The position numbers and the translations under genes are program-made. A stretch of DNA of 64,000 bases, from positions 2,232,001 to 2,296,000 of the forward strand of contig NZ_AP019373.1 in the NCBI RefSeq assembly GCF_004323595.1, written 5' to 3'. Below are positions 33-61,501 of this stretch, in pieces. The notes beneath the pieces were generated by a model. It saw only the letters and a program-made list of their open reading frames with translations, was not told where the DNA came from and made no database searches. Within the stretch, counting starts at the first letter, position 1, and each line of letters starts with the position of its first letter. The stretch comes from Sulfuricystis thermophila. GTDB lineage: Bacteria > Pseudomonadota > Gammaproteobacteria > Burkholderiales > Rhodocyclaceae.

Positions 33-965
33 ATGAGCGCGCCAACGTCAGCGCAGCACCAGCCGGTGCTGCTTGCCGAAGCCGTCGCCGCCCTGGCCAT
101 CCGGCCGGACGGCCTCTATGTGGATGGCACCTTCGGGCGCGGCGGCCACAGCCGCGCGATTCTCGCGCGACTCGGGCCACAGGGGCGGCTCGTCGCGCTG
201 GATCGCGATCCGCAGGCGGTCGCGGCGGGCAGGGAGATCGCCGATCCGCGCTTGACGCTCGTCCATGCCGCTTTCAGCCGCTTGGGCGACGTCTTGGATG
301 CCTTGGGCATCGCTCGGGTCAATGGGATTCTGCTCGATCTGGGCGTGTCCTCGCCGCAGCTGGACGATCCGGCGCGCGGCATGAGTTTTCGTTTCGATGC
401 GCCGCTGGACATGCGCATGGATACGACGCAGGGGGAAACCGCGGCGGAGTTTCTGGCGCGGGCCGATCAATCGGAAATCGAGGAGGTGATTCGTGAGTAT
501 GGCGAAGAACGGTTTGCTCATGCGCTTGCAAAGGCGCTTGTTGCTGCTCGGCAGCGGGAACGTATTTCATCCACAGGACAACTTGCCGCGCTCGTGGCGC
601 AGGTCGTGCGCACGCGCGAGCCTGGCCAGCATCCGGCGACGCGCACCTTCCAGGCTCTACGGATTCACGTCAATCGGGAGCTTGAGGAGCTCTCGCTAGC
701 CCTGCCCCAGGCGCTCGATCGTTTGCAGCCGGGCGGAAGGCTCGCCGTGATCAGTTTCCATTCGCTCGAAGACCGCATCGTCAAGCGCTTTCTGCGCCAT
801 GCGGCGCAGCCGCCGCAACCGCCGAAAGGCGTGCCGGTGCGGGCTGCCGAGCTGCCAGCGCCGAGTCTGCGCCTGATCGGCAAGCCGATCCGCCCCGGCG
901 CTGCGGAAATCGCCCGCAATCCCCGTGCCCGGAGCGCGGTGCTGCGAGTCGCGGAGAAGTGCTGA
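33..965 (+). CDS. rsmH: 16S rRNA (cytosine(1402)-N4)-methyltransferase RsmH
   Basis: This enzyme uses S-adenosylmethionine to methylate N4 of C1402 in the P-site of 16S rRNA. The protein has 310 residues, the normal length. The SAM-binding loop [10 protein letters not shown] lies at residues 31-40, followed by LVALDRDP, whose acidic residue should bind the ribose. [13 protein letters not shown] and [14 protein letters not shown] are further family signatures. It is the first complete gene of the dcw cluster, and its TGA overlaps the ftsL ATG. Codons near 844-868 carry a copy of the dispersed 25-base repeat, read as ELPAPSLR. Confidence 0.97.
844..868 (+). repeat. Dispersed 25-base repeat, copy 1 (rsmH)
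   Basis: Contains CTGCCAGCGCCGAGT. The left part has GA in place of the consensus TC. Read in rsmH as ELPAPSL. Confidence 0.55.
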
Positions 966-1225
966 TGGCAAAGCTCAATTTCGTCCTGATCCTCGCCGTG
1001 CTGGTCTCGGCGCTGGCGGTCGTCTCGACCAACCACCGGGCGCGGCGGCTGATCAGCGAATTCGAGCGCCAACAGGAACGCATGCGCGCGCTGGAGGTCG
1101 AATGGGGCCAGCTGCAGCTCGAACAGAGCACCTGGGCCGCCCATGCGCGCATCGCGCAGATCGCCCGCGACAAACTCGGCATGCATGCGCCCCGGCCGCA
1201 GCAGATCGTCAACATCCGCGAATGA
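965..1225 (+). CDS. ftsL: Cell division protein FtsL
   Basis: An 86-residue bitopic membrane protein of the FtsQLB subcomplex, which relays the signal that activates FtsWI septal synthesis. It has a short cytoplasmic start (MAKLN), one membrane segment at about residues 5-21, then a charged, heptad-like stretch (RRLISEFERQQERMRALEVE) typical of the periplasmic coiled coil. FtsL is poorly conserved, so size, topology and position between rsmH and ftsI support the call. A GTG at 959 is possible, but the ATG at 965 lies 8 bases after GGAG and overlaps the rsmH stop (TGATG). Confidence 0.9.
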   Translation: MAKLNFVLILAVLVSALAVVSTNHRARRLISEFERQQERMRALEVEWGQLQLEQSTWAAHARIAQIARDKLGMHAPRPQQIVNIRE

Positions 1226-2949
1226 AACTCGCCAAGAGCCCCCTCCTCGTCGACCGCCTGCCGATCTGGCGTTCCCGGCTCGTGCTCGCGCTGCTGCTCG
1301 CCGGCTCGGCGGCGCTGATCGGGCGCGCCTTCTACCTGCAGGGCATCCACAAGGACTTCCTGATCGGCAAGGGCGAATCGCGCTATGAGCGCGTGATCGA
1401 GATCCCGGCCACCCGCGGCCGTATCCTCGATCGCAATGGCACCGTGCTGGCGGTATCGACGCCGGTCAAGTCGGTCTGGGCGATCCCGGAGGATGCCCGG
1501 CTCGCGCCTGCCGAGGCTCGTCAGCTGGCCGGTCTGCTGCGCATGGAGGTGAATGATCTCGTCAGGAAACTCGCCGCCGCACGTGATTTCGTCTTCCTGA
1601 AACGCCAGATTCCGCCGGATGTCGCCGCCCGGGTGGCAGAGCTCAAGCTGCCCGGCATCCATTTCCAGAACGAATATCGCCGCTACTATCCCGCCGGCGA
1701 GGTCACCGCCCATCTGCTCGGCTTCACCGGCGCGGAGGATGCCGGCCAGGAAGGCATCGAGCTCGCCCTCGACAAGGCGCTTGCCGGCAAGGCCGGCTCG
1801 CGGCGCGTGATCAAGGACCGCCGCGGCCAGATCGTCGAAGATGTCGAGTCGATCCGCGCACCGCAAGAGGGCAAGGACGTCACGCTTTCCATCGACGCCA
1901 AGCTGCAGTATCTCGCCTACTCGCAGCTCAAACAGGCGGTGACGGAAAATCGCGCCAAGGCCGGCGGCATCGTCGTGCTCGATGCGAAGAGCGGCGAAAT
2001 CCTCGCGCTCGCCAACCTGCCCGCCTACAACCCGAACAACCGTGCCCGACTCTCCGGCGCACAGCTGAGAAATCGCGCCTTCACCGATACCTTCGAGCCG
2101 GGCTCGACCTTCAAGCCCTTCGCCGTCGCGCTGGCGCTCGACAAGGGTCAGGTGCGCTTCGACACGCCGATCCAGACCGCGCCGGGCAAGCTCACCATCG
2201 GCCCGGCGACGATCCACGATGCCCATCCCCATGGCATGCTGACGGTCGCGCAGGTGATCCAGAAGTCTTCCAACGTCGGCGTCTCGAAAATGGCGCTCAA
2301 TCTGCCGGCCGAGGAGATGTGGGCGATGTTCGACAAGCTCGGCTTCGGCCAGCCGACCCGCATCGGCTTTCCTGGTGAGGCCGGCGGCCGGTTGCGCCCC
2401 TGGAAGCACTGGCGGCCGATCGAGCAGGCGACGATGTCTTACGGCCACGGTATTTCGGTGACGCTGATCCAGCTCGCGCGCGCCTATCAGGTGTTCGCCC
2501 GCAACGGCGATCTCGTGCCGCTGTCGCTCACCCGCGTCGATGTGCCGCCCGCCGTCGGCCTGCGAGTGTTCTCCGAACAGACCGCCAAGGAAATGCGCGC
2601 GATGCTCGAAATGGTGGTGCAGCCCGGCGGCACGGCCGTGAAGGCGCAGGTGCCCGGCTATCGTGTCGCCGGCAAGACCGGCACCGCGGTCAAGCTCGAA
2701 GGCGGGACCTATGTGAACAAGTACGTCGCGGCCTTCGTCGGCTTCGCGCCGGTGTCCGATCCGCGGCTGATCGTCGCGGTGATGATCGACGAACCTTCGG
2801 CCGGCAAGTATTACGGCGGCGATGTCGCCGCCCCGGTGTTTTCCAGTGTGATGTCGAGCGCCTTGCGTGCGCTCGGCGTTGCCCCCGATGACGCGCCACG
2901 GCTGTTGACGGTGGCGAAAAGCGAAACGTCCGCCCCGGAGGAGATGTGA
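1222..2949 (+). CDS. ftsI: Peptidoglycan D,D-transpeptidase FtsI (PBP3)
   Basis: The septal transpeptidase (class B PBP, 575 residues) that cross-links peptidoglycan at the division site with FtsW. A short cytoplasmic tail is followed by a membrane anchor (LVLALLLAGSAALIG, about residues 16-32). A PBP dimer domain precedes the transpeptidase domain. The active-site motifs are all visible: STFK at residues 295-298 (catalytic Ser295), SSN at 349-351 and KTGT at 485-488. The ATG overlaps the ftsL stop (ATGA). Confidence 0.97.
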   Translation: MKLAKSPLLVDRLPIWRSRLVLALLLAGSAALIGRAFYLQGIHKDFLIGKGESRYERVIEIPATRGRILDRNGTVLAVSTPVKSVWAIPEDARLAPAEARQLAGLLRMEVNDLVRKLAAARDFVFLKRQIPPDVAARVAELKLPGIHFQNEYRRYYPAGEVTAHLLGFTGAEDAGQEGIELALDKALAGKAGSRRVIKDRRGQIVEDVESIRAPQEGKDVTLSIDAKLQYLAYSQLKQAVTENRAKAGGIVVLDAKSGEILALANLPAYNPNNRARLSGAQLRNRAFTDTFEPGSTFKPFAVALALDKGQVRFDTPIQTAPGKLTIGPATIHDAHPHGMLTVAQVIQKSSNVGVSKMALNLPAEEMWAMFDKLGFGQPTRIGFPGEAGGRLRPWKHWRPIEQATMSYGHGISVTLIQLARAYQVFARNGDLVPLSLTRVDVPPAVGLRVFSEQTAKEMRAMLEMVVQPGGTAVKAQVPGYRVAGKTGTAVKLEGGTYVNKYVAAFVGFAPVSDPRLIVAVMIDEPSAGKYYGGDVAAPVFSSVMSSALRALGVAPDDAPRLLTVAKSETSAPEEM

Positions 2950-4130
2950 TCCAGCCCGCCTTCATGGTCGGTGTCACCGGCACCAACGGCAAGACCTCGG
3001 TGACGCAATGGATCGCCCAGGCGCTCACCCTGTGCGGCCGCAAATGCGCGATCGTCGGCACGCTGGGCAACGGCTTTCCGGGCGCGCTGGTGCCGGGACC
3101 GAACACCACGCCGGGCGCGCACGTGCTGCGCGAGTTCCTGCCGGAGAGCGTTCGCCAGGGTGCCCAAGCCTGTGCGATGGAGGTCTCGTCGATCGGCTTG
3201 CATCAGAACCGCGTCGCGGGCGTGCGTTTCGATGTCGCGGTATTCACGAATCTGACCCGCGACCATCTCGAATACCACGGCACGATGGCCGCCTACGCCG
3301 CCGAAAAGGCGAAGCTGTTCGACTGGCCTGGCTTGCGCTCTGCGGTGTTGAACCTCGACGATCCCTTCGGTCGCGAACTCGCGGCGAAACTCGCTGGCCG
3401 TGTGCCGACGATCGGCTACACGCTGGGCGACGAGAGCGGTGCAGACCGTGTGCTGCACGCGACAGGGCTCGCGGCAACCGCGACGGGGCTGAGCTTCACC
3501 GTCGATGGCGTCGCCATCTCCGCGCCAGTAATCGGCCGCTTCAATGCATCCAACCTGCTCGCGGTGATCGGCACGCTGCTCGCCGGCGGCGAGCGGCTCG
3601 AAACCATCGCCGCGGTATTGACCCGGATCGTCGCCCCGCCCGGCCGCATGCAGCCGCTCGGCGGCGGAGAGGACGAGCCGTTGGTGATCGTCGATTACGC
3701 CCACTCGCCCGATGCGTTGGCAAAGGTGCTGACCACCCTGCGCGGTACGGCCAGTGCCCGCGGCGGCCGGCTCGTCTGCGTCTTCGGTTGCGGCGGCGAG
3801 CGCGATCCCGGCAAGCGGCCGCAGATGGGCGCGATCGCAGAAGCGGCTGCCGACCAGGTCGTCGTCACCAGCGACAATCCACGCGGCGAGGCGCCGCAGG
3901 CGATCATCGATCAGATCCTGGCCGGCATGCGATCGAAGCCAATCGTCGAGCCCGACCGTGCCCGCGCGGTGGAGGCGACGATCGCTGCCGCCGCGCCCAA
4001 CGATGTGATCCTGCTCGCCGGCAAGGGCCACGAACCCTATCAGGAAATCGCCGGCGTGCGCATTCCCTATTCGGACGTCGAGACCGCAAAGTCGGCGCTG
4101 GCAAGACGGCACGAGGTGCTCAAATGCTGA
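2946..4130 (+). CDS. murE: UDP-MurNAc-tripeptide synthetase MurE, lacking the N-terminal domain
   Basis: Adds meso-diaminopimelate to UDP-MurNAc-L-Ala-D-Glu in the cytoplasm. The central ATPase domain (GTNGKTS at residues 12-18, VIDYAHSPDAL) and the C-terminal domain with the meso-DAP signature DNPR (310-313) are intact. The open frame gives 394 residues against about 490 for the family. Residues before the P-loop number about 11 instead of about 110, so the N-terminal domain that binds the UDP moiety is absent. The GTG start overlaps the ftsI TGA (GTGA), leaving no room upstream. The C-terminus reads a dispersed-repeat copy (KSALARRH). Confidence 0.9.
   Translation: MIQPAFMVGVTGTNGKTSVTQWIAQALTLCGRKCAIVGTLGNGFPGALVPGPNTTPGAHVLREFLPESVRQGAQACAMEVSSIGLHQNRVAGVRFDVAVFTNLTRDHLEYHGTMAAYAAEKAKLFDWPGLRSAVLNLDDPFGRELAAKLAGRVPTIGYTLGDESGADRVLHATGLAATATGLSFTVDGVAISAPVIGRFNASNLLAVIGTLLAGGERLETIAAVLTRIVAPPGRMQPLGGGEDEPLVIVDYAHSPDALAKVLTTLRGTASARGGRLVCVFGCGGERDPGKRPQMGAIAEAAADQVVVTSDNPRGEAPQAIIDQILAGMRSKPIVEPDRARAVEATIAAAAPNDVILLAGKGHEPYQEIAGVRIPYSDVETAKSALARRHEVLKC
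4088..4112 (-). repeat. Dispersed 25-base repeat, copy 2 (murE 3' end)
   Basis: On the plus strand it reads AAAGTCGGCGCTGGC then AAGACGGCAC, one substitution from consensus. It encodes KSALARRH near the MurE C-terminus. Confidence 0.8.
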
Positions 4131-5524
4131 CTCTTTCCGCAACGGCGCTGATCCTCAACGGCATCCAGACCGGCCGGGATGTCGAGTTCACCAGCGTCGG
4201 CACCGATTCGCGCGCGATCACGCCGGGCATGCTGTTCGTCGCGCTGACCGGCGAGCGTTTCGATGGTCACGACTACGTCGAACAGGCCCTGGCCGCTGGC
4301 GCGAGCTCGGCGCTGGTGCGCAGCGACTGGGCAGCGGCACATCCCCATCTGCCGCTGGTCGGCGTCAATGACACGCGCCGTGCGCTTGGCCAGCTCGCCG
4401 CCCACTGGCGCAGCCGCTTCCACATCCCGCTGATCGGCATCACCGGCAGCAACGGCAAGACCACCGTCAAGGAAATGTGCGCGGCGATCCTGCGCGCCGA
4501 CTTCGGCCAGCATGCGGTGCTGGCGACGAGCGGCAACCTCAACAACGACATCGGCATGCCGCTCACCTTGCTCAAACTCCATGCGCCACATCGCGCGGCG
4601 GTGATCGAGATGGGCATGAATCACCCCGGCGAGATCGCCTATCTGACGCAGATTGCGAAACCGACCGTCGCCGTCGTCACCAATGCCCAGCGTGCGCATC
4701 TGGGCGGACTCGGTTCCGTGGCCGAGATCGCCCGCGCCAAGGGCGAGATCTTCGCCGGGCTCAGCGATGACGGCGTGGCCATCATCAATGCCGACGATCC
4801 GCAGGCCGAATACTGGCGCGGCCTCAATGCCGGCCGGCGCATCGTCACCTTCGGCTTTTCGCCCGAGGCCACCGTGCATGGCCGCTGGCGGCCGTTCGGG
4901 CGTGGCGGCGAGCTCGATCTCGTCACACCGCGGGGTGATGCGCACATCATGCTGCCGCTGGCCGGCGAGCACAATGGCCGCAATGCGCTCGCCGCCGCTG
5001 CCGCCTGCTTTGCCCTCGGCGTGCCGCTGGCACCGATCGTGCGCGGCCTGTCGGGCTGCACCGGCACCGCCGGCCGCCTGCAACACAAGCGTGGTCTGCG
5101 AGGCGCCTGTGTGATCGACGACAGCTACAATGCCAATCCCGATTCGATGCGCGCGGCGATCGACGTGCTGGCAAGCTTGCCCGGCAAGCGCATCTTCGTG
5201 ATGGGCGACATGGGCGAGGTCGGCGAGATGGCCGGACAGCTGCACAGCGAAGTCGGCGGCTACGCCAAGAGCCAAGGCATCGACCTCCTGTTCGCGCTGG
5301 GCGAGAAGAGCGCAGCCGCGGTGCATGACTTCGGCAGTGGCGGACGGCACTTCACCGGCGTCGATGCCCTGGTGCGCGCGCTCAAACCGTTGCTGGACCC
5401 GGACACCACCGTGCTCGTCAAGGGCTCGCGCTTCATGAAGATGGAGCGCGTCGTCGAACGCATCGTCGAAGGGGCTGCCCCTGAATCGCCCCGCACGGCG
5501 GAGGAGGACGGCGATGCTCCTTGA
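4124..5524 (+). CDS. murF: UDP-MurNAc-tripeptide:D-Ala-D-Ala ligase MurF
   Basis: Adds D-Ala-D-Ala to complete the UDP-MurNAc-pentapeptide. The 466-residue protein is full length, with an intact N-terminal domain ([15 protein letters not shown]), unlike MurE just upstream. The P-loop [11 protein letters not shown] begins at residue 108. [19 protein letters not shown] and [11 protein letters not shown] are typical MurF motifs. The ATG overlaps the end of murE by 7 bases. Confidence 0.97.
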
Positions 5525-6683
5525 ACTGTTCCAATGGCTGGCGCAGGACATCCGCGCCTTCAACGTCTTCAACTACATCACGCTGCGCGCGGTGCTGGCG
5601 ACGCTGACGGCGCTGACGATCTCGTTCGTCTTCGGCCCGGCGGTGATCCGTTGGCTGACCGCGAAGAAGATCGGCCAGGCGGTGCGCATCGATGGGCCGC
5701 AGACCCATCTGGCCAAATCCGGCACGCCGACGATGGGCGGCGCGCTGATCCTGCTCTCGCTGGGCGTCTCGACGCTGTTGTGGGCGGATCTCACCAACCG
5801 TTTCGTCTGGATCGTGCTGATCGTCACTTTCGGCTATGGCGCGATCGGCTGGGTCGACGACTGGCGCAAGGTGGTCTATCGCAATCCGAAAGGCCTGTCG
5901 GCGAAGGCGAAGTTCTTCTGGCAGACGGTGATCGGCATCGTCGCCGCCCTCTGGGTCGCGTTTTCGATCTCCGCGCCTTCCAGCGAAAAGGCCCTGCAGC
6001 TGTTCCTGCAATGGGCCGGCAGCGGCTTTGCCACGGCGTTGCCGACGCGCACCGATCTGATCGTGCCCTTCTTCAAGAGTGTTTCCTATCCGCTCGGCAT
6101 CGTCGGTTTCATCGTCCTCACCTATCTGGTCATCGTCGGCGCCAGCAACGCGGTGAATCTGACCGACGGCCTCGACGGTCTGGCGATCCTGCCCACCGTG
6201 ATGGTCGGAGCAGCACTGGGCATCTTCGCCTATGTCGCGGGCCATGCCGGTTTTTCGAAATACCTGCTGCTGCCCTACGTGCCGGGCGCCGGCGAGCTCA
6301 CGGTGTTCTGCGGCGCGCTGGCCGGCGCGGGTCTGGGCTTCCTGTGGTTCAACGCCTATCCGGCCGAGGTCTTCATGGGCGATGTCGGCGCATTGGCGCT
6401 CGGCGCCGCGCTCGGCACGGTGGCGGTGATCGTGCGGCAGGAGATCGTGTTTTTCATCATGGGCGGGGTGTTCGTCGCCGAGACCGTCTCGGTGATGCTG
6501 CAGGTCGGCTGGTTCAAGTTCACCAAGTGGAAGACCGGCACCGGCCAGCGCATCCTGCTGATGGCGCCGCTGCACCACCATTACGAGCAGGTCGGCTGGA
6601 AAGAGACCCAGGTCGTCGTGCGTTTCTGGATCATCACCATCCTCCTGGTGCTGATCGGTCTGTCGACATTGAAGATCCGATGA
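5514..6683 (+). CDS. mraY: Phospho-MurNAc-pentapeptide transferase MraY
   Basis: Integral membrane enzyme that transfers phospho-MurNAc-pentapeptide to undecaprenyl phosphate, forming lipid I. At 389 residues with about ten hydrophobic segments, it has the longer form usual in betaproteobacteria. Catalytic and Mg-binding motifs are present: DDWRK at residues 115-119, [10 protein letters not shown] at 215-224 and the histidine loop HHHYE at 354-358. The start overlaps the end of murF by 11 bases. Confidence 0.97.
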
Positions 6684-8056
6684 ATCTCGCCGGCAAACAC
6701 GTGCTGATCCTCGGCCTGGGTGAATCGGGCCTGGCGGCCGCCCGCTGGTGCGACCGCCAGGGCGCGCGGCTGCGCATCGCCGACACACGGACGAATCCGC
6801 CGGGCCTCGAGGCCCTGCAGTGCCGTCTCGCCAGCGCCGAGTTTCGTGCCGGCGAATTCGACAAGACGCTGCTCGACGGCATCGATCTCGTCGTGCTCTC
6901 GCCGGGCCTGTCGCCCGGCATGCTGGTGGTGATCCATGCCCGCGCCCGGGGCATTCCGGTGGTCGGCGAGATCGAGCTGTTCGCCCAGGCGCTGCGCGCG
7001 CTCGCGCAGCACGTGCCGGTGATCGCGATCACCGGCACCAACGGCAAGACGACGACGACCGCGCTCACCGGCCATCTGCTCGCCGCCAGCGGCCGCACGG
7101 TGGGCGTGGCCGGCAACATTTCGCCGGCCGCGCTCGATGCCCTGATGGACTTTCAGGACCAAGGCGCCCTGCCCGAGGCCTGGGTGCTGGAACTGTCGAG
7201 CTTCCAGCTCGAAACCACCGAAACGCTCGACGCCACCGCGGCGACGGTGCTCAACGTCTCGGACGACCACCTCGACCGCTACATCGATCTGGACGACTAC
7301 GCCAGCGCCAAGGCGCGCATCTTCCGCGGCACGGGCACCCAGGTGCTCAACCGCGACGATCCACGAGTGAAACGCATGGCGATTCCCGGCCGCAAGCTGA
7401 TCACCTTCGGCCTCGATGCGCCTGCCGATGCCAACGACTTCGGCCTGCGCGAAAACCGCAACGAGCCCTGGCTGGTGCAGGGCGACCGTTTCCTGCTGCC
7501 GGTCGGCGCACTGCCGCTCGCCGGTCTGCACAATGCCGCGAACGTGCTGGCGGCATTGGCGCTGTGCACCGCGATCGGCCTCGAGCCGGTCAAGCTCTTG
7601 CCGGCGCTGCGGACATTCCGCGGCCTGCCGCACCGCGTCGAGAAAGTGACGACGATCGGCGGCGTGACCTTCTACGACGATTCGAAGGGCACCAACGTCG
7701 GCGCCACCGTCGCCGCGCTCCGAGGACTGGGGACGAAGTCCGTCGTCATCCTCGGCGGCGATGGCAAGGGACAGGATTTTTCTCAGCTTGTGCCCGCCGT
7801 CGCCCAGCACGCCCGCGCCGTGGTGCTGATCGGCCGTGACGCGCCGCTGATCGAGCAGGCCATCGCCGGCTGCGGCGTGCCGCTGAGGAACGCGACCGAC
7901 ATGGCCGATGCGGTGCGCACCGCGGCCAGACTGGCGCAGACCGGCGATGCGGTGCTGCTCTCACCGGCCTGCGCGAGCTTCGACATGTTCAAGAATTACG
8001 CACACCGCGCCGAAGTATTTCGGGCGGCGGTCGCCGAACTGGAGGCCCGGGCATGA
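6680..8056 (+). CDS. murD: UDP-MurNAc-L-alanine:D-glutamate ligase MurD
   Basis: Adds D-glutamate to UDP-MurNAc-L-Ala. The protein has 458 residues with all three Mur domains: an N-terminal nucleotide-binding fold ([16 protein letters not shown]), the ATPase loop GTNGKTTTT from residue 119, and a C-terminal domain with FYDDSKGTN and [11 protein letters not shown]. Codons 48-56 (CRLASAEFR) coincide with a copy of the dispersed 25-base repeat. The start overlaps the mraY stop (ATGA). Confidence 0.97.
6821..6845 (+). repeat. Dispersed 25-base repeat, copy 3 (murD)
   Basis: TGCCGTCTCGCCAGC then GCCGAGTTTC. Read in murD as CRLASAEF. Confidence 0.8.
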
Positions 8057-9225
8057 ACACCGCCGTGCTCGGCCGCCGTGTTGGCGGCGCCTCCACCGCC
8101 AACGAAATCGACCCGCTGCTGCTTTGGCCGGCGCTCGCGCTGCTCCTGACTGGCCTGGTGATGGTGTATTCGGCCTCGATCGCCACCGCCGAGGGTTCGG
8201 CCTTCAGCGGCCATACGCCGACCTACTTTCTGGTACGCCATACCGCCTTCCTGCTGATCGGGCTGGTCTGGGCGCTGATCGTCTTCCAGATTCCGCTGCG
8301 CATCTGGCAGCAGCTGGCGCCCTGGCTGTTCCTCGCCGGCGTGGTGTTGCTGGCGGTCGTGCTGATCCCCGGCATCGGCAGGTCGGTCAATGGCGCGCAG
8401 CGCTGGATCGGGCTCGGCCCTATCAATGTCCAGCCCTCGGAGTTCATGAAGCTCGCCGCCGTGCTCTATGCGGCGGACTACACGGCAAGAAAGCTCACCG
8501 AGATGGGCAGCTTCCGACGCGGCTTCGTGCCGCTGGCGGCGGTGATGATCGTCGTCGCCGCACTGCTCTTGCGCGAGCCGGATTTCGGCGCCTTCGTCGT
8601 CATCATCGGCATCGCGATGGGCATCCTGTTCCTCGGCGGCATGAACGGCCGGCTGTTCGCCTTCCTGATCGTCGCCATGGCCATCGCCTTCGCGCTCTTG
8701 ATCATCTCTTCGCCTTACCGCTGGGAACGCATCATCAGCTACATGGACCCCTGGCGCGACGCCTTCGGCAAAGGCTACCAGCTCTCGCACGCGCTGATCG
8801 CCTTCGGGCGCGGCGAGTGGTTCGGCGTCGGTCTGGGCGCTTCGGTCGAGAAGCTGTTTTATCTCCCCGAGGCGCACACCGATTTCCTGCTCGCGGTGAT
8901 CGCCGAGGAGCTCGGCTTCGTCGGCGTCGTGGCGGTCGTCCTGCTGTTCGCGCTGCTCACCTGGCGATCCTTCATGGTCGGCCGCCAGGCCCTGCTGCTC
9001 GACCGCGTCTACGCCAGTCTCGTCGCGCAGGGCATCGGCATCTGGCTCGGCTTGCAGAGCTTCATCAACATGGGCGTCAATATGGGGCTGTTGCCCACCA
9101 AGGGGCTGACGCTGCCGTTGATGAGCTTCGGCGGTTCCGGCATCGTCGCCAACTGTGTCGCGCTCGCTGTGCTGCTGCGCGTGGACTTCGAGAACAGAAG
9201 ATTGATGAGGGGATTGCCGGCATGA
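8053..9225 (+). CDS. ftsW: Septal peptidoglycan glycosyltransferase FtsW
   Basis: SEDS-family glycosyltransferase that polymerises lipid II at the septum with FtsI. The 390-residue protein is almost wholly hydrophobic with about ten membrane segments. Signatures include YSASIATAE early on, [21 protein letters not shown] in the middle, and the C-terminal [18 protein letters not shown] and MSFGGSGI. The ATG overlaps the murD stop (ATGA). It is followed by an 85-base repeat-containing gap, the only sizeable gap in the cluster before ftsA-ftsZ. Confidence 0.97.
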
Positions 9226-9310
9226 AAATAATGGCCCCCCACGCTCGTAAAACCAACTCGCTGCCCCCCACAGGGGGGCGCATGCTGCCTTGGGGCAGCC
9301 CGGCGGCAGC
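9226..9310. repeat. GC-rich double-hairpin element between ftsW and murG
   Basis: This 85-base gap interrupts an otherwise gapless cluster. It contains a perfect hairpin with a 7-base stem (GCCCCCC 9263-9269, loop ACA, GGGGGGC 9273-9279). A second hairpin has a 6-base stem (GCTGCC 9284-9289, loop TTGG, GGCAGC 9294-9299). The end TTGGGGCAGCCCGGC resembles the end of the element between hemC and hemD (TTGGGGCGGCCCGGC), so both look like members of one extragenic repeat family. No T-run follows, so a classical terminator is unlikely. It may pause transcription or stabilise mRNA. Confidence 0.6.
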
Positions 9311-10362
9311 ATGAAGACCATCGTCATCATGGCGGGAGGCACCGGCGGTCACATCATGCCCGGTCTCGCGGTCGCCGACCGGTTGCGCGATGCCGGCTGG
9401 AAAGTGGTCTGGATGGGCAACCCGGATGGCATGGAGGCGAAGCTCGTGCCGCCGCGTCATTACGAAATGGCCTGGGTGCGCTTTTCCGCCTTGCGCGGCA
9501 AGGGGCTCAAGCGCCAGCTGCTGCTGCCCTTCAACCTGCTCACCGCCTTCTGGCAGGCCTGGCGCGCCTTTGGAAAGATTCGTCCGGACGTCGTGCTGGG
9601 CATGGGCGGCTTCATCAGCTTTCCCGGCGGGATGATGGCCAGCCTGCGCGGCATCCCGCTGGTGCTGCACGAGCAGAATTCGATCCCCGGCTTGGCCAAC
9701 AAAGTGCTCGCCCATGTCGCCGATCGCGTGCTGACCGGTTTTCCCGATACATTCAGGAAAGGCCGCTGGGTCGGCAATCCGGTACGGCCGGAGATCGCCG
9801 CGTTGCCACCGCCCGCCGAGCGCTATGGCGCGCGCAGCGGCCGGCTGCAAGTGCTGGTGCTCGGCGGCAGCCTCGGCGCTGCGGCGCTCAACGAAACCGT
9901 GCCGAAGGCCCTCGCATTGTTGCCGGAGGACGAACGTCCCGAGGTCGTGCATCAGTCGGGCGAAAAGCATCTCGACGCGTTGCGCGCCGCCTATGCCGCC
10001 GCCGGCGTCCATGCACACACCGTGGCCTTCATCGCCGACATGGCGGGCGCCTATGAATGGGCGGACCTGGTGATCTGCCGCGCCGGCGCGGCGACGATCG
10101 CCGAGCTTGCCGCCGCGGGCGTGGCGAGCATCCTGGTGCCTTTCCCGCATGCGGTCGACGACCATCAGACCGCGAACGCGCGCTTCCTCGCCCAGGCGGG
10201 TGCGGCGATCCTGCTGCCCCAGAGCGAGCTGACGCCGGAGCGCCTCGCGCTGATCCGCGCTCTGAAACGCCCGCAACTGATCGAGATGGCGGAGAAGGCG
10301 CGCGCGCTGGCGATGCCCGAAGCAACCGCCGCCGTGGCGGCCACCTGTGAAGAGGTCTGCAA

Positions 10363-10366
<4 letters not shown>
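9311..10366 (+). CDS. murG: Lipid II synthase MurG
   Basis: Transfers GlcNAc from UDP-GlcNAc to lipid I on the inner face of the membrane (GT28 family). The 351-residue protein begins [18 protein letters not shown], containing the conserved glycine-rich loop. Other signatures are [23 protein letters not shown], the mid-protein VLGGSLGA and the donor-binding [15 protein letters not shown]. The frame extends upstream to 9290 (MGQPGGS), but that extension lies in repeat DNA and the ATG at 9311 matches the family start. Confidence 0.97.
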
Positions 10367-11750
<1,384 letters not shown>

Positions 11751-11751
<1 letters not shown>

Positions 11752-12626
11752 TGGAACTGCGAGCCAGTGAGCCGATGGCCAAACACGTCACCTGGCGCGC
11801 CGGCGGCCGCGTCGCCAAGGCCTGCTTTCCGCACGACCTCGAAGATCTCGCCCACTTCCTGGCCGGGCTGCGTTGCGACGAGCCGCTGCTGATGGTAGGG
11901 CTGGGATCGAACCTGTTGATCCGCGATGGCGGCTTTGACGGCACGGCGATCTTCACCCACGGCGCGCTGAAGGCCCTGCGTCTGACGGCTGACGGCTCGA
12001 TCTATGTCGAGGCCGGGGTCGCCGCACCGAAGCTGGCGCGCTTCGCCGCCACCCACGGCTTCGCCGGCGCCGAGTTCCTCGCCGGCATTCCCGGCACGAT
12101 CGGCGGCGCACTGGCGATGAACGCCGGCTGCTACGGCAGTGAAATCTGGCAGTTCGTCGACCGCGTGTGCATGCTGAACCGCAAGGGCGAAACGATCGAG
12201 CGCACGCCGGCGGATTTCGCGCTCGGTTACCGGCATTGCGGCTTGAAACAGGCCAGCGACGAAATCTTCGCCGCCGCCTGGCTGCGCTTCCCCGCCGGGG
12301 ACGCCGCAGTGGCGCGCGCGAGGATCCGCGAGCTGCTCGCCCGCCGTGTCGCGACCCAGCCCTTGCAGCTGCCGAATGCCGGCTCGGTGTTCAGAAACCC
12401 GCCGGGCGACCACGCCGCACGCCTGATCGAAGCCGCTGGCCTGAAGGGTCTGGAGCTCGGCGGCGCAAGGGTGTCCGAAAAGCATGCGAATTTCATCGTT
12501 AATCCGGGGGGCGTGGCCAGCGCTTCCGCGATAGAAAGCTTAATCGGCCGCATTCAGGCCGAAGTGCAGGAAAAGTTCGGCGTGACACTGGTGCGCGAGG
12601 TGCGCATTCTCGGAGCAAGATGCTGA
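11751..12626 (+). CDS. murB: UDP-N-acetylenolpyruvoylglucosamine reductase MurB
   Basis: FAD- and NADPH-dependent enzyme that makes UDP-MurNAc. The 291-residue protein is a short, type II-like MurB. Visible signatures are HVTWRAGGRV, VGLGSNLLIRDGG, FAGAEFLAGIPGTIGGALAMNAGCYG, and the C-terminal NAGSVFRNPPGDHAARLIEAAGLKG region carrying the Ser proton donor. The ATG shares its A with the murC TGA (TGATG). Confidence 0.96.
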
Positions 12627-13552
12627 TGGCAGGCAGGTTTGGTAAGGTGGCGGTGTTGATGGGCGGCGATTCCGCCGAGCGCGAGATCTCGCTGATCTCG
12701 GGTAAGGCGGTGCTCGAGGCGCTGCTCGCCGCCGGTGTCGATGCCTATGCCTTCGATCCGGCCAAGCAGCCGATCTGGACGCTCGCCGAACAGCGGCCGG
12801 AGCGCGCCTTCATCGTCCTGCACGGCGGGGCGGGCGAAAACGGCACGGTGCAAGCCGCACTCGATCTGCTGAAGATCCCCTATACCGGCAGCGGCGTGCT
12901 CGCCTCGGCGCTGGCGATGGACAAGCGCCGCACGACCTTGCTCTGGCAGGCCTGCGGCCTGCCGGTGCCGCGCTCGCGTCTCGTCACTGCGGGCAATGAA
13001 GGGCCCGCCGTGATTGCCGAGCTCGGGCTGCCGCTGATCATAAAGCCGGTGCGCGAAGGTTCTTCGATCGGTGTCACGAAGGTGATGCGCGCGGAAGAAT
13101 TCGCCGCTGCCTTCGCCGCTGCCGCGACCTTGCCCGATGGCCGTCACGAGGAAGTCATGGCCGAGGAATTCGTCGCCGGCACCGAGCTCACCGCTGCCGT
13201 TCTCGGAGAGCGGGTACTGCCGCTGGTGCGGATCGAGGCGCCCGAAGGCCGCTACGACTACCAGAACAAGTATTTCACCGATGTCGTGAAGTATCACTGC
13301 CCGGCCGGCATCGATGCCGCCAAAGAAGCCGAGATCGCCCGCACGGTGCTGGCGGCATTCGACGCCCTCGGCTGTCGCGGCTGGGGACGCGCCGATCTGA
13401 TCCTGCGCGATGACGGCAGTTTCCGCCTGCTGGAAATGAACACCGCACCCGGTATGACCAGCCATTCGCTGGTGCCGATGGCGGCCAAGGCTGCCGGCAT
13501 CGATTTCACCGCCCTGGTGCTGACGATCCTGGCGGAGGCGCGCTGTGGCTAG
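12620..13552 (+). CDS. ddlB: D-alanine:D-alanine ligase Ddl
   Basis: ATP-grasp enzyme that makes D-Ala-D-Ala, the MurF substrate. It has about 310 residues. Motifs: VLMGGDSAEREISL, HGGAGENGTVQAALDLL, PLIIKPVREGSSIGV and the C-terminal metal site LLEMNTAPGMTSHSL. Two starts are possible: ATG 12620, 4 bases after GGAG, and ATG 12626, which overlaps the murB stop and is 10 bases after it. Confidence 0.96.
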   Translation: MLMAGRFGKVAVLMGGDSAEREISLISGKAVLEALLAAGVDAYAFDPAKQPIWTLAEQRPERAFIVLHGGAGENGTVQAALDLLKIPYTGSGVLASALAMDKRRTTLLWQACGLPVPRSRLVTAGNEGPAVIAELGLPLIIKPVREGSSIGVTKVMRAEEFAAAFAAAATLPDGRHEEVMAEEFVAGTELTAAVLGERVLPLVRIEAPEGRYDYQNKYFTDVVKYHCPAGIDAAKEAEIARTVLAAFDALGCRGWGRADLILRDDGSFRLLEMNTAPGMTSHSLVPMAAKAAGIDFTALVLTILAEARCG

Positions 13553-14366
13553 CACACGCGGCAAACCGCGCAACGCGCCTGCCGAGCCGGCCGGGCTGTG
13601 GCATCAGCCGGCGCTGCTCGATCTGATCGCCGACGTGCTGTTCGCACTGGGCATCGTCGGTCTGGGCTGGGCGGCGCTGATCGGCCTGCAGCGCCTGCCG
13701 GCGTTTCCGCTCCGCGAAGTGGTACTCGCCTCGCCCCCGCAGCATGTCAGCCCGGCGCAGATCGCCCATGCAGTGCGCACCACGGTCAGCGGCAATTTCT
13801 TCACCGTCGATCTCGCCGCAATACAGGCGGGCATCGAGGCGCTGCCCTGGGTGCGGCGCGCCGCGGTGCGCCGGCAATGGCCGGATGGCCTCACGGTGAC
13901 GCTCGAAGAGCACGAGGCCGTGGCGCAGTGGCGCCACCTGAACGGCGAGAAAGGACTGGTCAACACATTCGGCGAGGTGTTCGATGCCGAGCCGCCCGAG
14001 GATGGGTCTCCTCTGCCGCTGCTCAGCGGTCCGCCGGATACGGCCGCCGAAATCCTCCAGCGCCAGGCCGCATTCGACGACCAGCTCGCGCCGCTGGGCC
14101 GGCATGTCACCGCGCTCACTCTCTCGCCGCGTCGCGCCTGGCATCTCGAGCTCGACGACGGCGTGGCGATCGAACTGGGCCGCGACGAAGAACGTCAGCC
14201 ACTCAACGCACGGCTGGCGCGCTTCGTCGCCCACTATCCAGACATCAAGGCGCATTTCGGCAACATCCGTGGCGCCGACATGCGTTACCCGAACGGTTTC
14301 GTGCTCACCGGCGCCGGGCGCCCGGTCGAGCCACTGCCTCCGGTAAAGGCAGGGAAGCAGTCATGA
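13545..14366 (+). CDS. ftsQ: Cell division protein FtsQ
   Basis: Bitopic scaffold protein of the divisome, 273 residues. A cytoplasmic N-terminus is followed by one membrane segment (about residues 25-48, VLFALGIVGLGWAALIGL). The POTRA domain (FPLREVVL ... NFFTVDLAAIQAGIEALPWVRRAAV) and the FtsQ C-terminal domain follow. The GTG start overlaps the end of ddlB by 8 bases. Confidence 0.95.
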   Translation: MASTRGKPRNAPAEPAGLWHQPALLDLIADVLFALGIVGLGWAALIGLQRLPAFPLREVVLASPPQHVSPAQIAHAVRTTVSGNFFTVDLAAIQAGIEALPWVRRAAVRRQWPDGLTVTLEEHEAVAQWRHLNGEKGLVNTFGEVFDAEPPEDGSPLPLLSGPPDTAAEILQRQAAFDDQLAPLGRHVTALTLSPRRAWHLELDDGVAIELGRDEERQPLNARLARFVAHYPDIKAHFGNIRGADMRYPNGFVLTGAGRPVEPLPPVKAGKQS

Positions 14367-15601: not shown

Positions 15602-15639
15602 TTTTTCGGTAACGCATTGGCAACGACAGGAGAGGCGAA

Positions 15640-16842: not shown

Positions 16843-16860
16843 TCGGCTCGCACCACGATC

Positions 16861-16895
16861 AACGCCCGGGGTTTCGCCTCCCCCGGGCGTTTTTC
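16861..16895 (+). terminator. Rho-independent terminator after ftsZ
   Basis: Perfect 9-base stem CGCCCGGGG (16863-16871) and CCCCGGGCG (16881-16889) with a 9-base loop, followed by five T. It lies 19 bases after the ftsZ stop and closes the dcw cluster. The T-run overlaps the stop codon of rsmA on the other strand. No T-run faces the minus strand. Confidence 0.88.
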
Positions 16896-24303: not shown

Positions 24304-24312
24304 CATTTTCCG

Positions 24313-46532: not shown

Positions 46533-46542
46533 CGATTAATGA

Positions 46543-46709
46543 GAAATACAAAGCAAAAAGTGCACCGCCCAGCGTTTCCTTGACGGCAGCCAATACTTGC
46601 GGCAACGCCGCGCAAATGGGAACCCCCCGAGAGGGGGGGCGAAGGGGGGCGGGTGTTTGCGCATGGGGTTTTCATCCTCTGCGGGTGCCGATTGCCGGCA
46701 TGCGCGTTA
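46543..46709. repeat. Copy A of a long extragenic repeat, ending at the grxD stop
   Basis: Near-identical in its outer parts to copy B at 52134-52311. The left block (GAAATACAAAGCAAAAAG, then CGTTTCCTTGACGGCAGCC) and right block (GCGGGTGTTT, GCGCATGGGGTTTTCATCC, then GATTGCCGGCATGCGCG) are shared. The middle differs and is a GC hairpin region. The last three bases are the grxD stop codon. Spurious minus-strand frames starting MKTPCA run through it. Confidence 0.8.
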
Positions 46710-47027
46710 GGCAGGCTGCTTCATCAGGTCGCCGAGCTTGGCCTGCAGCTCACCGGCCTGATACATCTCGGTCATGATGTCGCAGCCACCGATGAATTCG
46801 CCGCGGATGTAGAGCACGGGAATGGTCGGCCAGTCGGCATATTCGCGCAGCTCCGGCACGGTGTCCGGCTCGGCGAGCACATTGACATCGACGAAATCGA
46901 CGTTGCAGCGCTTGAGGATTTCCGCGGCGCGGCCGGAAAAACCGCAGCGCGGAAACTGCTTCGTGCCTTTCATGAACAGCACGACGGGATGTTGAGTGAC
47001 GAGTTGGTGGATCTGTGCCTTGTTCAT
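46707..47027 (-). CDS. grxD: Monothiol glutaredoxin GrxD
   Basis: Grx4-type glutaredoxin that binds a 2Fe-2S cluster with glutathione and helps cluster delivery, 106 residues. The monothiol active site is CGFS (RCGFSGRAAEIL), preceded by VVLFMKGTKQFPR. WPTIPVLYIRGEFIGGCDI forms the glutathione site. Its TAA is also the end of long repeat copy A. Confidence 0.96.
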   Translation of the reverse strand: MNKAQIHQLVTQHPVVLFMKGTKQFPRCGFSGRAAEILKRCNVDFVDVNVLAEPDTVPELREYADWPTIPVLYIRGEFIGGCDIMTEMYQAGELQAKLGDLMKQPA

Positions 47028-48492: not shown

Positions 48493-48900
48493 ATGTCCGC
48501 TGCGTGCCGTCCTGCCAGCGCCGAGTTTCGCCGCCTCCATCGTCTGACCCTGATCGCCAGCGCCAGCCTGATCGCATTGATCGCCCTCTGCCTCGCCTGG
48601 GAGCTGTGGCTCGCTCCGTTGCGCCCCGGCGGTTCCTGGCTTGCGCTGAAGGCGCTGCCGTTGCTGCTGCCGCTGTTCGGCATCCTGCACGGCCGGCGCA
48701 CCACCCATCAATGGGCGAGCCTGCTGATCCTGTTGTATCTGCTCGAAGGGTTGACGCGGCTCATCAGCGATGCCGGCACGAGCCGCTGGCTGGCCGCCGG
48801 CGAGACCCTGCTCGCCGGCATTTTTTTCGCCGCCGCGCTGGCTTTTGCGCGCCTGTCTGCGCCCGCGCGACGAAAAGCCGCGATCACAGCTGCGGATTGA
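48493..48900 (+). CDS. DUF2069 membrane protein
   Basis: 135-residue protein with about four hydrophobic segments ([66 protein letters not shown]), matching DUF2069. No function is known. The ATG follows GAAGGGG. Residues 4-13 (CRPASAEFR) are encoded by a copy of the dispersed repeat at 48504-48530, so this N-terminus is probably not ancestral. The end overlaps leuA by 17 bases. Confidence 0.82.
48504..48529 (+). repeat. Dispersed 25-base repeat, copy 12 (DUF2069 gene)
   Basis: GTGCCGTCCTGCCAGC then GCCGAGTTTC, a full consensus match, 11 bases after the ATG. Read as CRPASAEF. Confidence 0.85.
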
Positions 48901-50626: not shown

Positions 50627-50643
50627 GACGCAACTATAACAAA

Positions 50644-52118: not shown

Positions 52119-52133
52119 CTTAGTTCTTAACGT

Positions 52134-52308
52134 GAAATACAGAGCAAAAAGAGCGCCGCCATTCGTTTCCTTGACGGCAGCCTACCTTCGCGGCGCAAGC
52201 CGCGCTGATAGTCTCCCCTCCCGCGAGGGAGGGGCTGGGGGAGGGCGGGTGTTTATTTTTGCGCATGGGGTTTTCATCCTCTGCGGGTGCCGATTGCCGG
52301 CATGCGCG

Positions 52309-52311
<3 letters not shown>
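52134..52311. repeat. Copy B of the long extragenic repeat, ending at the ilvC stop
   Basis: Shares both outer blocks with copy A (46543-46709), with the same polarity relative to the adjacent minus-strand gene. The last three bases are the ilvC stop codon. The centre holds the hairpin CCCCTCCC, loop GCGA, GGGAGGGG (52215-52234). It separates ilvC from psd inside what is otherwise one operon. Confidence 0.8.
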
Positions 52312-53343
<1,032 letters not shown>

Positions 53344-53835: not shown

Positions 53836-53837
53836 GT

Positions 53838-55671: not shown

Positions 55672-56235
55672 TTGGCTTCCCGCGCCGAGCTCTCCAACTT
55701 TCTCGCCAGCGTCGAACGCCGCGCTTACAAGCAGGCGCTGTTCGCCGTGCGCGACGAGGAGGTGGCGCTCGACATCGTCCAGGACTGCATGATGCGCATC
55801 GCGGAAAAATACGGCGACCGACCGGCCGAGGAATTGCCGCCACTTTTCCAGCGCATCCTGCAAAATGCGATCCGCGACCATTACCGGCGCAGCCGCACCC
55901 ATGCGGAACGATTCACCTCGCTGTCGGCCTTCGAGGGCGATGAGGAGAATCCCGCCGATGCCCTGGAGACCCTGGAAACCGACGAGGATGCCAACCCTTT
56001 TGCCGGGCCGCTCGATGCGCTGCTCCAAGCGGAAACCCTGAATCTGGTGGAGGAAGCCTTGCAAAACCTGCCGCCCCGTCAACGCGAAGCCTTCCTGCTG
56101 CGTTATTGGGAAGGATTGGACATCGCCGAAACCGCTGCCGTCATGGGTTGCACGGAAGGCAGCGTCAAGACCCATTGTTCGCGCGCCACCCATGCCCTGG
56201 CGGCCGCGCTCGAGGCAAAAGGAATCAGACCATGA
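55672..56235 (+). CDS. ECF-like RNA polymerase sigma factor
   Basis: 187 residues with sigma-70 region 2 (YKQALFAVRDEEVALDIVQDCMMRI...LFQRILQNAIRDHYRR) and region 4 (LPPRQREAFLLRYWEGLDIAETAAVMG, then SVKTHCSRATHAL). TTG at 55672 is the only canonical start after the preceding in-frame stop. The next two genes encode small membrane/exported proteins, but neither shows a typical zinc anti-sigma motif. Confidence 0.85.
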   Translation: MASRAELSNFLASVERRAYKQALFAVRDEEVALDIVQDCMMRIAEKYGDRPAEELPPLFQRILQNAIRDHYRRSRTHAERFTSLSAFEGDEENPADALETLETDEDANPFAGPLDALLQAETLNLVEEALQNLPPRQREAFLLRYWEGLDIAETAAVMGCTEGSVKTHCSRATHALAAALEAKGIRP

Positions 56236-56624
56236 ACCAGGAAGAACTGTTTGCCCGCCAAGTGTGCCGCGTCCTCGACCGGGGGACGCTGAATCTCGAC
56301 CACGAGATCGTCGAGCGTCTGCGCGCCGCGCGCGAGCGCGCCTTGCAGCATCAGCGCGTCCTCGTCCACAAGACCGTCTTGGTCGGCGCTGACGGCACGG
56401 CACTCATGGATGGCGATGAGGAAAGGCACCCGCTGCGTACCTGGCTGGCGATGCTGGCGCTGTTGCTCGGCGTCAGCCTCGCCTATGTCTGGAACGGCTA
56501 CACCGCGGCCACCGAAAACGAGGAAATCGATAGCGCCCTGCTTGCCGACGACCTGCCGCCCCACGCTTACCTGGACAAAGGTTTTCAGGCATGGCTCGAA
56601 AAAGATCCTTCTTCCGGGGACTGA
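56232..56624 (+). CDS. DUF3619 membrane protein
   Basis: 130 residues with a cytoplasmic N-terminal part rich in Arg/Glu, one membrane segment (WLAMLALLLGVSLAYVW) and a short acidic periplasmic tail, matching DUF3619. It follows the sigma gene with an ATGA overlap, so the two are probably co-translated. A role as a regulator of that sigma factor is a guess from context. A dispersed-repeat copy is read as LVGADGTAL. Confidence 0.78.
   Translation: MNQEELFARQVCRVLDRGTLNLDHEIVERLRAARERALQHQRVLVHKTVLVGADGTALMDGDEERHPLRTWLAMLALLLGVSLAYVWNGYTAATENEEIDSALLADDLPPHAYLDKGFQAWLEKDPSSGD
56379..56403 (-). repeat. Dispersed 25-base repeat, copy 13 (DUF3619 gene)
   Basis: GTCGGCGCTGACGG then CACGGCAC, diverged at the AAA end. 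Read as VGADGTA. Confidence 0.6.
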
Positions 56625-58762: not shown

Positions 58763-58763
58763 T

Positions 58764-59858: not shown

Positions 59859-59959
59859 TGCTGCGGATCGAGGGGGAAATTTGCGGATCTTCGTTCTTGG
59901 CGCCGAAAATGCCGGAAAATTGCTTAAACTTCGCTTTTTTCCATTTCCAGGAGCCTACG

Positions 59960-61501
59960 GTGGAATTTAGCATAAAGAGCGGAAACCCGGAAAAGCAGCG
60001 TACGGCCTGTGTCGTCGTCGGGGTTTTCGAGCCTCGCAAGCTTTCCCTGCCCGCGGAATTGATCGACAACGCGGCCCGCGGCTATCTTTCCGAACTGTTG
60101 CGGCGCGGTGACATGGAAGGCAAGGCGGGCACGACGCTGCTGCTGCACAAGGTGCCGGGCACGGAGGCCGACCGCGTGCTGCTCGTCGGTCTGGGCAAGG
60201 AACGCGAATTCCGTGAAAAAGAATATCGCAACGCCATCACCACGGCGGTGCGCACCCTGAATGAAACCGGCGGTTTCGACGGCACGCTGTACTTGACCGA
60301 GCTGGCGGTCAAAAAACGTGATGTCGCCTGGCGCGTGCGTCAGGCGGTGATGGCCGTCGAAGAGACGCTCTATCGCTTCGACCAGATGAAGTCGAAAAAA
60401 GACGAAGTTCGCCGACCGCTGCGCAAACTGACTTTCTGCGTCGAACGGCGCAGCGAACTCGCCGCCGCTGAACAAGCCCTGCTCGAAGGGCAAGCCATCG
60501 CCGCCGCGATGCAATTGATGAAAAACCTCGCCAATCTGCCGGGCAATGTCTGCACGCCGACTTACCTTGCCGAGCAGGCGCGAACCCTGGCCGGCGAGCA
60601 CGGGCTGGAAATCGAGGTGCTCGGCCGCGAAGAGATGGAACGGCTCGGCATGAATGCGCTCCTGGCGGTGGCCAAGGGCTCGAAGGAGCCGCCGCAGTTC
60701 ATCGTCCTGAAATACCACGGCGGCAAGGCGAACGACAAGCCGATCGTGCTGGTCGGCAAGGGGGTCACCTTCGATACCGGCGGCATTTCGCTCAAGCCGC
60801 CGCAGGACATGGACGAGATGAAGTTCGACATGTCGGGCGCCGCCAGCGTGCTGGCCACGATCAAGGCCGCGGCGCAGATGAAACTGCCGCTCAACGTCAT
60901 CGCCGTGGTGCCCACCGTCGAGAACATGCCGGGCGGCGGCGCGAGCCGTCCGGGCGACATCGTCACCTCGATGTCCGGCCAGACCATCGAGATCCTCAAT
61001 ACCGATGCCGAAGGGCGCCTGATCCTCTGCGATGCGCTGACCTACGTCGAACGCTTCGAACCCGACTGCGTGATCGACGTCGCCACGCTCACCGGCGCCT
61101 GCGTGATCGCGCTCGGCCACGTCGTCAGCGGACTGCTCGCCAACCACGACAGCCTGGCGCACGAACTCATCGATGCCGGCAATGCCGCCTGGGATCGCGC
61201 CTGGCAGCTCCCCTTGTTCGAGGATTATCAGGAGCAGTTGAAGAGCAACTTCGCCGACATGGGCAACATCGGCGGCCGACCCGCCGGCACCATCACCGCC
61301 GCCTGTTTCCTGTCGCGCTTCACGAAGAAATACGACTGGGCACACCTCGACATCGCCGGCACTGCCTACAAGAGCGGCAAGGAAAAGGGTTCGACCGGTC
61401 GGCCGGTGCCGCTGCTGACCCATTTCCTGCTGGAACGGGCGGCGAAAGCCGAGACTGGCGGCTCACGGAAAGTCGGCGCTGACGGGACGGCACGGAAGTA
61501 G
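59960..61501 (+). CDS. pepA: Leucyl aminopeptidase PepA
   Basis: M17 di-zinc aminopeptidase, 513 residues. Metal and catalytic motifs: [27 protein letters not shown] and [10 protein letters not shown]. The GTG start is preceded by AGGAG. The family usually ends shortly after [14 protein letters not shown]. Here an extra tail ([14 protein letters not shown]) is encoded by the dispersed repeat at 61468-61493. Confidence 0.95.
61468..61493 (-). repeat. Dispersed 25-base repeat, copy 14 (pepA 3' end)
   Basis: GAAAGTCGGCGCTGAC then GGGACGGCAC. Read as KVGADGTA in the last residues of PepA, 8 bases before the end of the stop codon. Confidence 0.85.

Follow-up and report, generated by a model that had tools for sequence, protein, structure and literature searches.

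A dispersed 24–25-bp motif with dialects in Sulfuricystis thermophila and its relatives is probably a DNA uptake sequence

The DNA uptake sequences (DUS) of the Neisseriaceae and the uptake signal sequences (USS) of the Pasteurellaceae occur roughly once per kilobase (PMC1626085), and the DUS fall into eight dialects in which CTG and one A are constant (PMC3630211). A paper from 2006 stated that DNA uptake sequences were known only from these two families (PMC1626085); passages of two later papers name only the same two (PMC7811141, PMC12616744), and ComN/PpdA is a candidate receptor for the USS (PMC12616744). Here we describe a motif dispersed through a 64,000-nucleotide stretch of the Sulfuricystis thermophila chromosome (assembly GCF_004323595.1, contig NZ_AP019373.1, positions 2,232,001 to 2,296,000; hereafter the window) and through the genomes of its relatives in the Rhodocyclaceae. 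Comparative analysis suggests that it is probably a new, longer and sparser DNA uptake sequence with dialects, most likely a fresh variant of the uptake-sequence kind that is a member of neither the Neisseriaceae nor the Pasteurellaceae sets.

The motif resembles the DUS in being short, in great excess, often in coding sequence, overrepresented across a family and divided into dialects that keep an inner core (PMC3630211 for the dialects). It differs in length (24–25 bp compared with 10–12), in density (about one copy per 5 kb compared with about one per kb), in its host family and in having no close inverted pairs in the 464 kb that we sampled; its consensus also fails the definition of the DUS as a 10–12-mer with constant CTG and A (PMC3630211). 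With the USS it shares an origin by point mutation, regular spacing, a preference for non-coding DNA, scarcity in acquired segments and constrained genes, and the existence of dialects, of which the USS has two types (PMC1626085, PMC7811141, PMC12616744). Whereas the USS has a 9-bp core with AT-rich flanks, the motif consists of two rigidly placed blocks and ends in TTT; its sequence is unrelated, its density is lower and its host has 65% GC and belongs to another class of bacteria. Searches of the open-access literature brought up no account of uptake sequences in Rhodocyclaceae or Sulfuritalea; judged by titles and the starts of abstracts, the string GCCAGCGCCGA led to no paper on the subject, and none of the matches listed dealt with uptake sequences beyond the Pasteurellaceae and Neisseriaceae.

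Abundance and anatomy of the motif

An initial annotation of the window had listed a dispersed 25-base motif at 14 places on both strands, 12 of them in coding sequence, and had argued that selection or copying acts on the DNA. All 14 places carry the motif (nine on the plus strand, five on the minus strand). A scan with the pattern TGCCGTCNNGNCAGCGCCGASTTT, allowing up to three mismatches, gave 14 copies in the window, whereas 100 dinucleotide shuffles averaged 0.02. Of the 14 copies, 13 had been annotated and one, at 11242 on the minus strand, had been overlooked. The remaining annotated copy, at 56379, has four mismatches, and those at 845 and 18397 have three each. Genes called with a simple in-house caller, used for the window and for the sample described below, contain 12 of the 14 annotated copies and 13 of all 15 in the window. 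When synonymous codons were permuted within the window's genes with every peptide kept (200 shuffles), a mean of 3.5 of the 14 copies was left (maximum six), two of which lie outside the shuffled genes. Because so few copies survive, it is the DNA word that is kept and not the peptides, as the annotation had proposed.

Genome-wide, the single contig of 2,737,315 bases holds 536 copies at up to three mismatches, compared with one match to the reversed pattern. This corresponds to about one copy per 5.1 kb, and the copies divide equally between the strands (268 forward, 268 reverse), with no orientation bias. Two checks that the annotation had suggested, a genome-wide count and a codon-keeping shuffle, the latter run on the window, therefore leave the motif standing. 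They also bear on the idea that conserved proteins, or codon and base composition, produce the word as a by-product. The peptide read at 11242 is partly kept in G006, a motif-free congener, and about 1.5 genic copies on average remain or arise per synonymous shuffle, as such a by-product would allow; however, the expectation of 0.02 copies in the window, the excess of 536 over one and the many different peptides read in six frames reduce its probability to practically nothing.

To describe the word we used a sample of 464 kb, comprising the window and 20 stretches of 20 kb spread over the S. thermophila genome. The consensus of the 84 copies from a first scan is GTGCCGTNYYGYCAGCGCCGASTTT. It holds about 33 bits over 25 positions, an overestimate because the sites were preselected at up to three mismatches, and the flanks are nearly flat for 20 bases on each side. 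Exact left halves number 99; 54 of them have the right half (up to one mismatch) at offset 0, and none has it at any of nine alternative offsets. Exact right halves number 44, compared with none in the reversed control. The word is one rigid 24–25-bp unit with its halves at a single spacing. With a 24-base pattern, copies with zero to four mismatches number 29, 33, 14, 9 and 7, and the control has none.

Two further roles were considered and rejected. Binding at half-sites is not borne out by the left half, whose 99 occurrences (control 48) include only 35 without the right half (at least five mismatches), which is below the control, or by the right half, which is accompanied by the left (zero to two mismatches) in 41 of 44 cases. 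A hairpin or terminator role was discarded because the sample contains no close inverted pairs and the window has no Rfam match.

Placement along the chromosome

Scanning the sample with a slightly different pattern at up to three mismatches gave 85 copies, of which 58 lie in genes, 19 between genes and eight across a gene edge. The intergenic share (22%) compares with 10% non-coding bases, coding sequence making up 90% of the sample. All six reading frames are used by the in-gene copies, unevenly: 23 give KVGAGGTA-type peptides, 14 AVLPAPT-type, 10 CRPASADF-type and five KSALAGR-type, and two arginine-rich readings account for three each. The annotation's remark that many copies lie close to the end of a gene describes a few copies in the window (4088, 42572, 48505 and 61469) and does not extend to the sample, in which there is no such concentration: of the 58 in-gene copies, two fall in the first 15 codons of a gene and four in the last 15, with about 2.7 expected for each.

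The copies are spaced more evenly than by chance. The coefficient of variation of the spacing is 0.67 against 0.87 in simulations, 0.4% of which were as low, and a single spacing is below 500 bp where seven were expected. Adjacent copies are on the same strand in 34 of 66 cases. The motif is present in 19 of the 21 stretches, two of the 20 sampled stretches having no copy. One of these two carries rpoB, rpoC, fusA, tuf and ribosomal protein genes. The other (L125, G000:1850001-1870000) has matches to a phage-type primase, an integrase, a Cas4-domain exonuclease and a RuvC-like Holliday-junction resolvase, a gene content from which we take it to be an acquired element; it also matches a recombinase and an M78 peptidase, and its integrase is probably of the serine type because the DNA invertase family matches too. 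Another stretch (L123, G000:1590001-1610000) includes a low-GC polysaccharide island (3000–17000, about 14 kb) that contains none of the five copies of the stretch and has glycosyltransferase, flippase-like, O-antigen-ligase-like, heparinase-like and asparagine synthase domains. DNA below 60% GC (2-kb average) holds one copy in 57 kb compared with 84 in 407 kb elsewhere (p=0.0004), which counts as one test with a caveat rather than several, because the ribosomal cluster and islands are mixed in this class and the word is itself rich in GC. In this small sample, copies are scarce in acquired DNA and in constrained genes.

Such a distribution could also be that of a binding site for an evenly spread protein of chromosome organisation, replication, segregation or repair, with dialects drifting along with the protein; a chromosome-organising or recombination site was among the roles that the annotation had listed. 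Even spacing, equal use of the strands, presence in 19 of 21 stretches and the dialects described below agree with it. However, the motif is missing from the rpoBC–ribosomal cluster and scarce in foreign-looking DNA, where such a protein would be expected to have sites at least between genes. Chi, KOPS and HIP1 are dispersed, non-mobile 8-mers kept as DNA, Chi and KOPS being strand-biased and HIP1 palindromic; our motif is a 24–25-bp non-palindrome with no strand preference when counted over the chromosome as a whole. Chromosome-organising sites also usually hold less sequence information than this word. We regard this explanation as unlikely.

Origin of the copies

How copies arise was followed by taking the matching regions from 11 congeners; the resulting pairs, from 86 sites in 11 motif-bearing genomes, are not independent of one another. 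In 243 gap-free orthologue pairs the core is 88.5% identical and the 30 bases on either side 76.9%, a contrast that has no matched random control. The partner has zero to three mismatches to the motif in 184 of these pairs and four to 11 in the other 59. In none of 494 pairs does the partner lack at least 15 of the 24 bases, compared with six of 7,985 at random places over three draws. The site at 18397 illustrates the process: the S. thermophila copy is decayed, better copies stand at the same place in G001, G009 and G013, and in G010 and G006 there are unrelated bases with no net gap.

These comparisons refute the annotation's third suggestion, a mobile element of small size that enters genes in the manner known from Rickettsia. 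The palindromic elements of Rickettsia, REP and BOX are dispersed in many copies, some of them genic, and are inserted sequences with hairpins. The motif resembles them in its many near-identical dispersed copies, some genic in several frames, and its surroundings are prone to insertions and deletions: a gap lies within 30 bp in 51% of orthologue pairs compared with 24–25% at random places, and an 18-base gap in G002 removes about half of copy 42572. Clean insertion is not seen, however; the corresponding sites of relatives have point-mutated or unrelated bases without a gap, the flanks of the copies are dissimilar and nearly uninformative, and the dialects differ at particular positions. An inserted or copied element of this kind has next to no probability. 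We explain the indel-prone surroundings by a word that is putatively tolerated in variable protein segments. On balance, it is substitution at tolerant sites that creates and erodes the copies.

Distribution and dialects among relatives

All genomes of the genus but one (18 of 19) are rich in the motif, with 380–755 copies; the exception, G006, has one. A looser pattern finds at least 40 copies in 41 of 249 genomes drawn from the family, in 10 of the 68 genera sampled, and the highest count among the rest is 25. Four genera (g1, g11, g47 and g90) each contain both motif-rich and motif-poor genomes, which suggests losses or dialect shifts. In an order-wide sample of 300 genomes of at least 80% completeness, none of the 291 from other families exceeds 17 copies. 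We also scanned 50 named genomes (from 80 loci), some of which are probably among the congeners already counted: ten have 341–712 copies, a Sulfuritalea hydrogenivorans metagenome-assembled genome has 171, another genome has 58 and none of the others has more than 25, with up to 12 in the reversed control. The Azonexus, Dechloromonas, Accumulibacter, Propionivibrio and Zoogloea genomes tested show background counts only. By record titles, the family's named members come largely from lakes, groundwater and similar habitats.

In a MurG tree of 58 rows, motif-rich genomes fall in the genus and in a Sulfuritalea-like clade, and being motif-rich requires five changes. Two genomes with a second dialect and one motif-free genome stand beside the Sulfuritalea-like clade with moderate support (85/67). 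The motif-free congener G006 (L131, L219-L224) has a very long MurG branch, which makes its position unsure; it possibly represents a loss of the code.

De novo counts of 11-mers, made on sets of 13–100 kb, were too weak to recover dialects, and we used a relaxed pattern instead; in L042 a repeat around GAGGCGCAGAG was prominent in those counts. The dialect strings, read by eye from about four to 15 sites each, are TGCCGTCYYGYCAGCGCCGASTTT in the genus of S. thermophila, CGCCGTCYCGYCAGCRCCGACTTT in g9, CGCCGTNYCGCCAGCGCCGACTTT in g62, CGCCGTRYCGYCAGCRCCGACTTT in g2, NGSCGTNCCGCCRGCGCCGACTTT in g70, NGSCGTRTCACCAGCGCCGACTTT in g88, NGCCGTRTCGCCAGCGTCGACTTT in g69, NGGCGTNYCRCCRYGGCTGACTTT in g90, G066 and G109, and CGCCGTRYCGSSGAGACTGACTTT in g11; none was readable for g47, which is represented by one stretch. 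Since the strings of g9, g62 and g2 are nearly alike, we count about eight dialects. Their skeleton is constant, with CGT near the left, a pyrimidine next and GACTTT at the right, and the middle and the left end vary. The S. thermophila dialect shares TGCCGTC with what we take to be the meningococcal DUS, a likeness that is probably coincidental because most of the other dialects are without it.

A few copies, some exact, occur in four otherwise motif-free genomes, G389 (family f38), G375 (family f22), G147 (g80) and G036 (g19); these strays may be imported DNA, assembly contamination or weak relict use.

In a viral collection, only 25 stretches contain an exact match to the S. thermophila dialect. 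This scarcity, with the lack of copies in the single sampled integrase-bearing element, would suit a mark by which a defence or restriction-like system recognises self. One copy per 5 kb would, however, probably be too sparse for piecewise protection, and known modification sites are shorter than this word; a dispersed regulatory site, the other possibility of this sort, is poorly matched by genic copies in all frames and orientations. We consider explanations of this class very improbable.

One viral contig, L308 (IMGVR_UViG_3300009945_000063), has by eye tail-like open reading frames. Its region 629–2290 contains, according to Tandem Repeats Finder, a tandem array of 4.7 copies of a 316-bp unit at 629–2123. 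The five motif copies of the stretch follow one another in steps of 316, 316, 316 and 385 bp, one per unit, with the last just past the array. The units are bounded by GCCTAAC...GTTAGGC, which by eye resembles integron attC sites; if the boundaries are attC sites, these would be gene cassettes bearing a putative uptake tag.

Competence genes and candidate receptors

Of the 19 congeners, 18 have a ComEC gene and 18 have DprA; over 61 genomes in all, ComEC is present in 55. The S. thermophila genome has 17 matches to N-methyl pilin-like proteins, including a PilE/FimT-like cluster (named by reading of the sequences); pilin-like genes also occur in motif-free genomes. One lone pilin, 2537939, looked promising as a receptor against eight genomes and failed against 61, being as similar in motif-free G030, G035 and G057 (61–64%) as in motif-rich genomes, and reaching only 45–49% in motif-rich G007, G009, G011 and G015. 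In alignments of FimT-like and PilE-like pilins from nine genomes, no feature visible by eye separates motif-rich from motif-free genomes. Sequence searches of the PDB with two of the S. thermophila pilins, the other pilins not being searched, listed no molecule named ComP.

Individual copies in the window

Seven plus-strand copies lie within genes. The copy at 845–868 (three mismatches) is inside a MraW-methylase gene (66–965) and is read as AELPAPS, that at 6821–6844 (exact) is inside gene 6680–8056 and read as CRLASAEF, and that at 27476–27499 (exact) is inside a dihydrouridine synthase gene and read as AVLPAPT. The other four are antisense to their genes: 17086–17109 (exact) in an rRNA adenine dimethylase gene, with the peptide KLGAGGTA; 18397–18420, with three mismatches and decayed as described above, in a pdxA-like gene; 32609–32632 (two mismatches) in a hemY-like gene, with KIGADGTA; and 34890–34913 (one mismatch) about 20 codons into a hemD-like gene, with KSALAGR. 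Two further plus-strand copies, both exact, are at gene boundaries. One at 42572–42595 shares a single base with the stop end of gene 42595–43362 on the minus strand, and one at 48505–48528 falls in the first codons of a DUF2069 gene.

On the minus strand, the exact copies at 4088–4111 and 61469–61492 occupy the last codons of a Mur ligase gene (2946–4130; peptide KSALARR) and of an M17 aminopeptidase gene (KVGADGTA), respectively. That at 24070–24093, also exact, is inside gene 23605–25551, which has no Pfam match, and is read as CRPASAEF; that at 39027–39050, exact by the window scan pattern, is intergenic. The copy at 11242–11265 (two mismatches) is antisense in gene 10363–11751, presumably murC, and may be partly protein-driven because its peptide EVGAGDTA is the one partly kept in G006. 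The copy at 56379–56402 is weak, with four or three mismatches depending on the pattern, and is antisense in gene 56232–56624, with the peptide LVGADGTA. Separately from the motif, the window contains a duplicated stretch at 46536–46710 and 52127–52312, about 5.6 kb apart, in which 68 bp are 81% identical and 76 bp are 87% identical.

Discussion

The motif shares with the DUS and USS its overrepresentation, absence of orientation bias, regular spacing, preference for non-coding DNA together with many genic copies, origin by substitution, scarcity in acquired and constrained DNA, occurrence in relatives and division into dialects. Having most of the features of these systems, the motif has as its most likely function that of an uptake sequence, and the uptake or recognition role that the annotation had placed first fits most of the tests made. 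We infer from sequence that the motif is read during DNA uptake, what kind of reader is involved and that these bacteria are competent. A surface receptor, most likely a putative minor pilin of a type IV pilus, would read GTGCCGTNYYGYCAGCGCCGASTTT and bind motif-bearing free DNA preferentially, and the bound DNA would be pulled in and then recombined into the chromosome. Fragments with good copies would be taken up more often than those with poor ones. This preference, coupled to homologous recombination, would let copies accumulate by point mutation where the host sequence tolerates them, and shifts of the preferred sequence in individual lineages would give rise to dialects.

Several observations weigh against an uptake sequence. 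Three features of the DUS and USS are not seen here. The density of about one copy per 5 kb is five times sparser than their roughly one per kb; inverted pairs at short distance are missing from the sample, the smallest of 66 spacings being 494 bp; and perfect copies are no more numerous than those with one mismatch, a comparison that is not strict because the word is much longer than the known 9–10-mers. The indel-prone surroundings and the gap that cuts copy 42572 in G002 count on the same side. ComEC and DprA are widespread and non-discriminating, and most genomes with ComEC outside the genus are motif-free; conversely, motif-free G006 retains ComEC, DprA and 15 pilin-like genes, so that loss of the motif was not accompanied by visible loss of the machinery. 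None of the 17 S. thermophila pilin-like proteins is restricted to motif-rich genomes among eight other genomes, and the weakest point of the case is that none of the pilins compared (with those of eight genomes, one candidate being followed in 61) tracks the motif as a receptor would. The open-access literature yielded no published uptake experiment for these bacteria.

A bolder proposal, which is conceivable but to which we would give slightly less than an even chance, is that the motif is a third, independently evolved code for self-DNA: a rigid 24–25-bp word in bacteria of Rhodocyclaceae type with about eight dialects and a surface receptor unrelated to ComP and ComN, in which dialect shifts and losses mark barriers to gene exchange.

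If the motif is an uptake sequence, the Rhodocyclaceae would be a further family with such a code, with about eight dialects, with motif-rich and motif-poor genomes side by side within genera and with some genomes in a single contig, which would allow a comparison of how uptake codes arise, shift and die. Co-variation with the dialects would offer a handle for finding a new DNA receptor, and the tag might aid the laboratory transformation of strains of this group. The motif would then also predict which of these bacteria exchange DNA by transformation.

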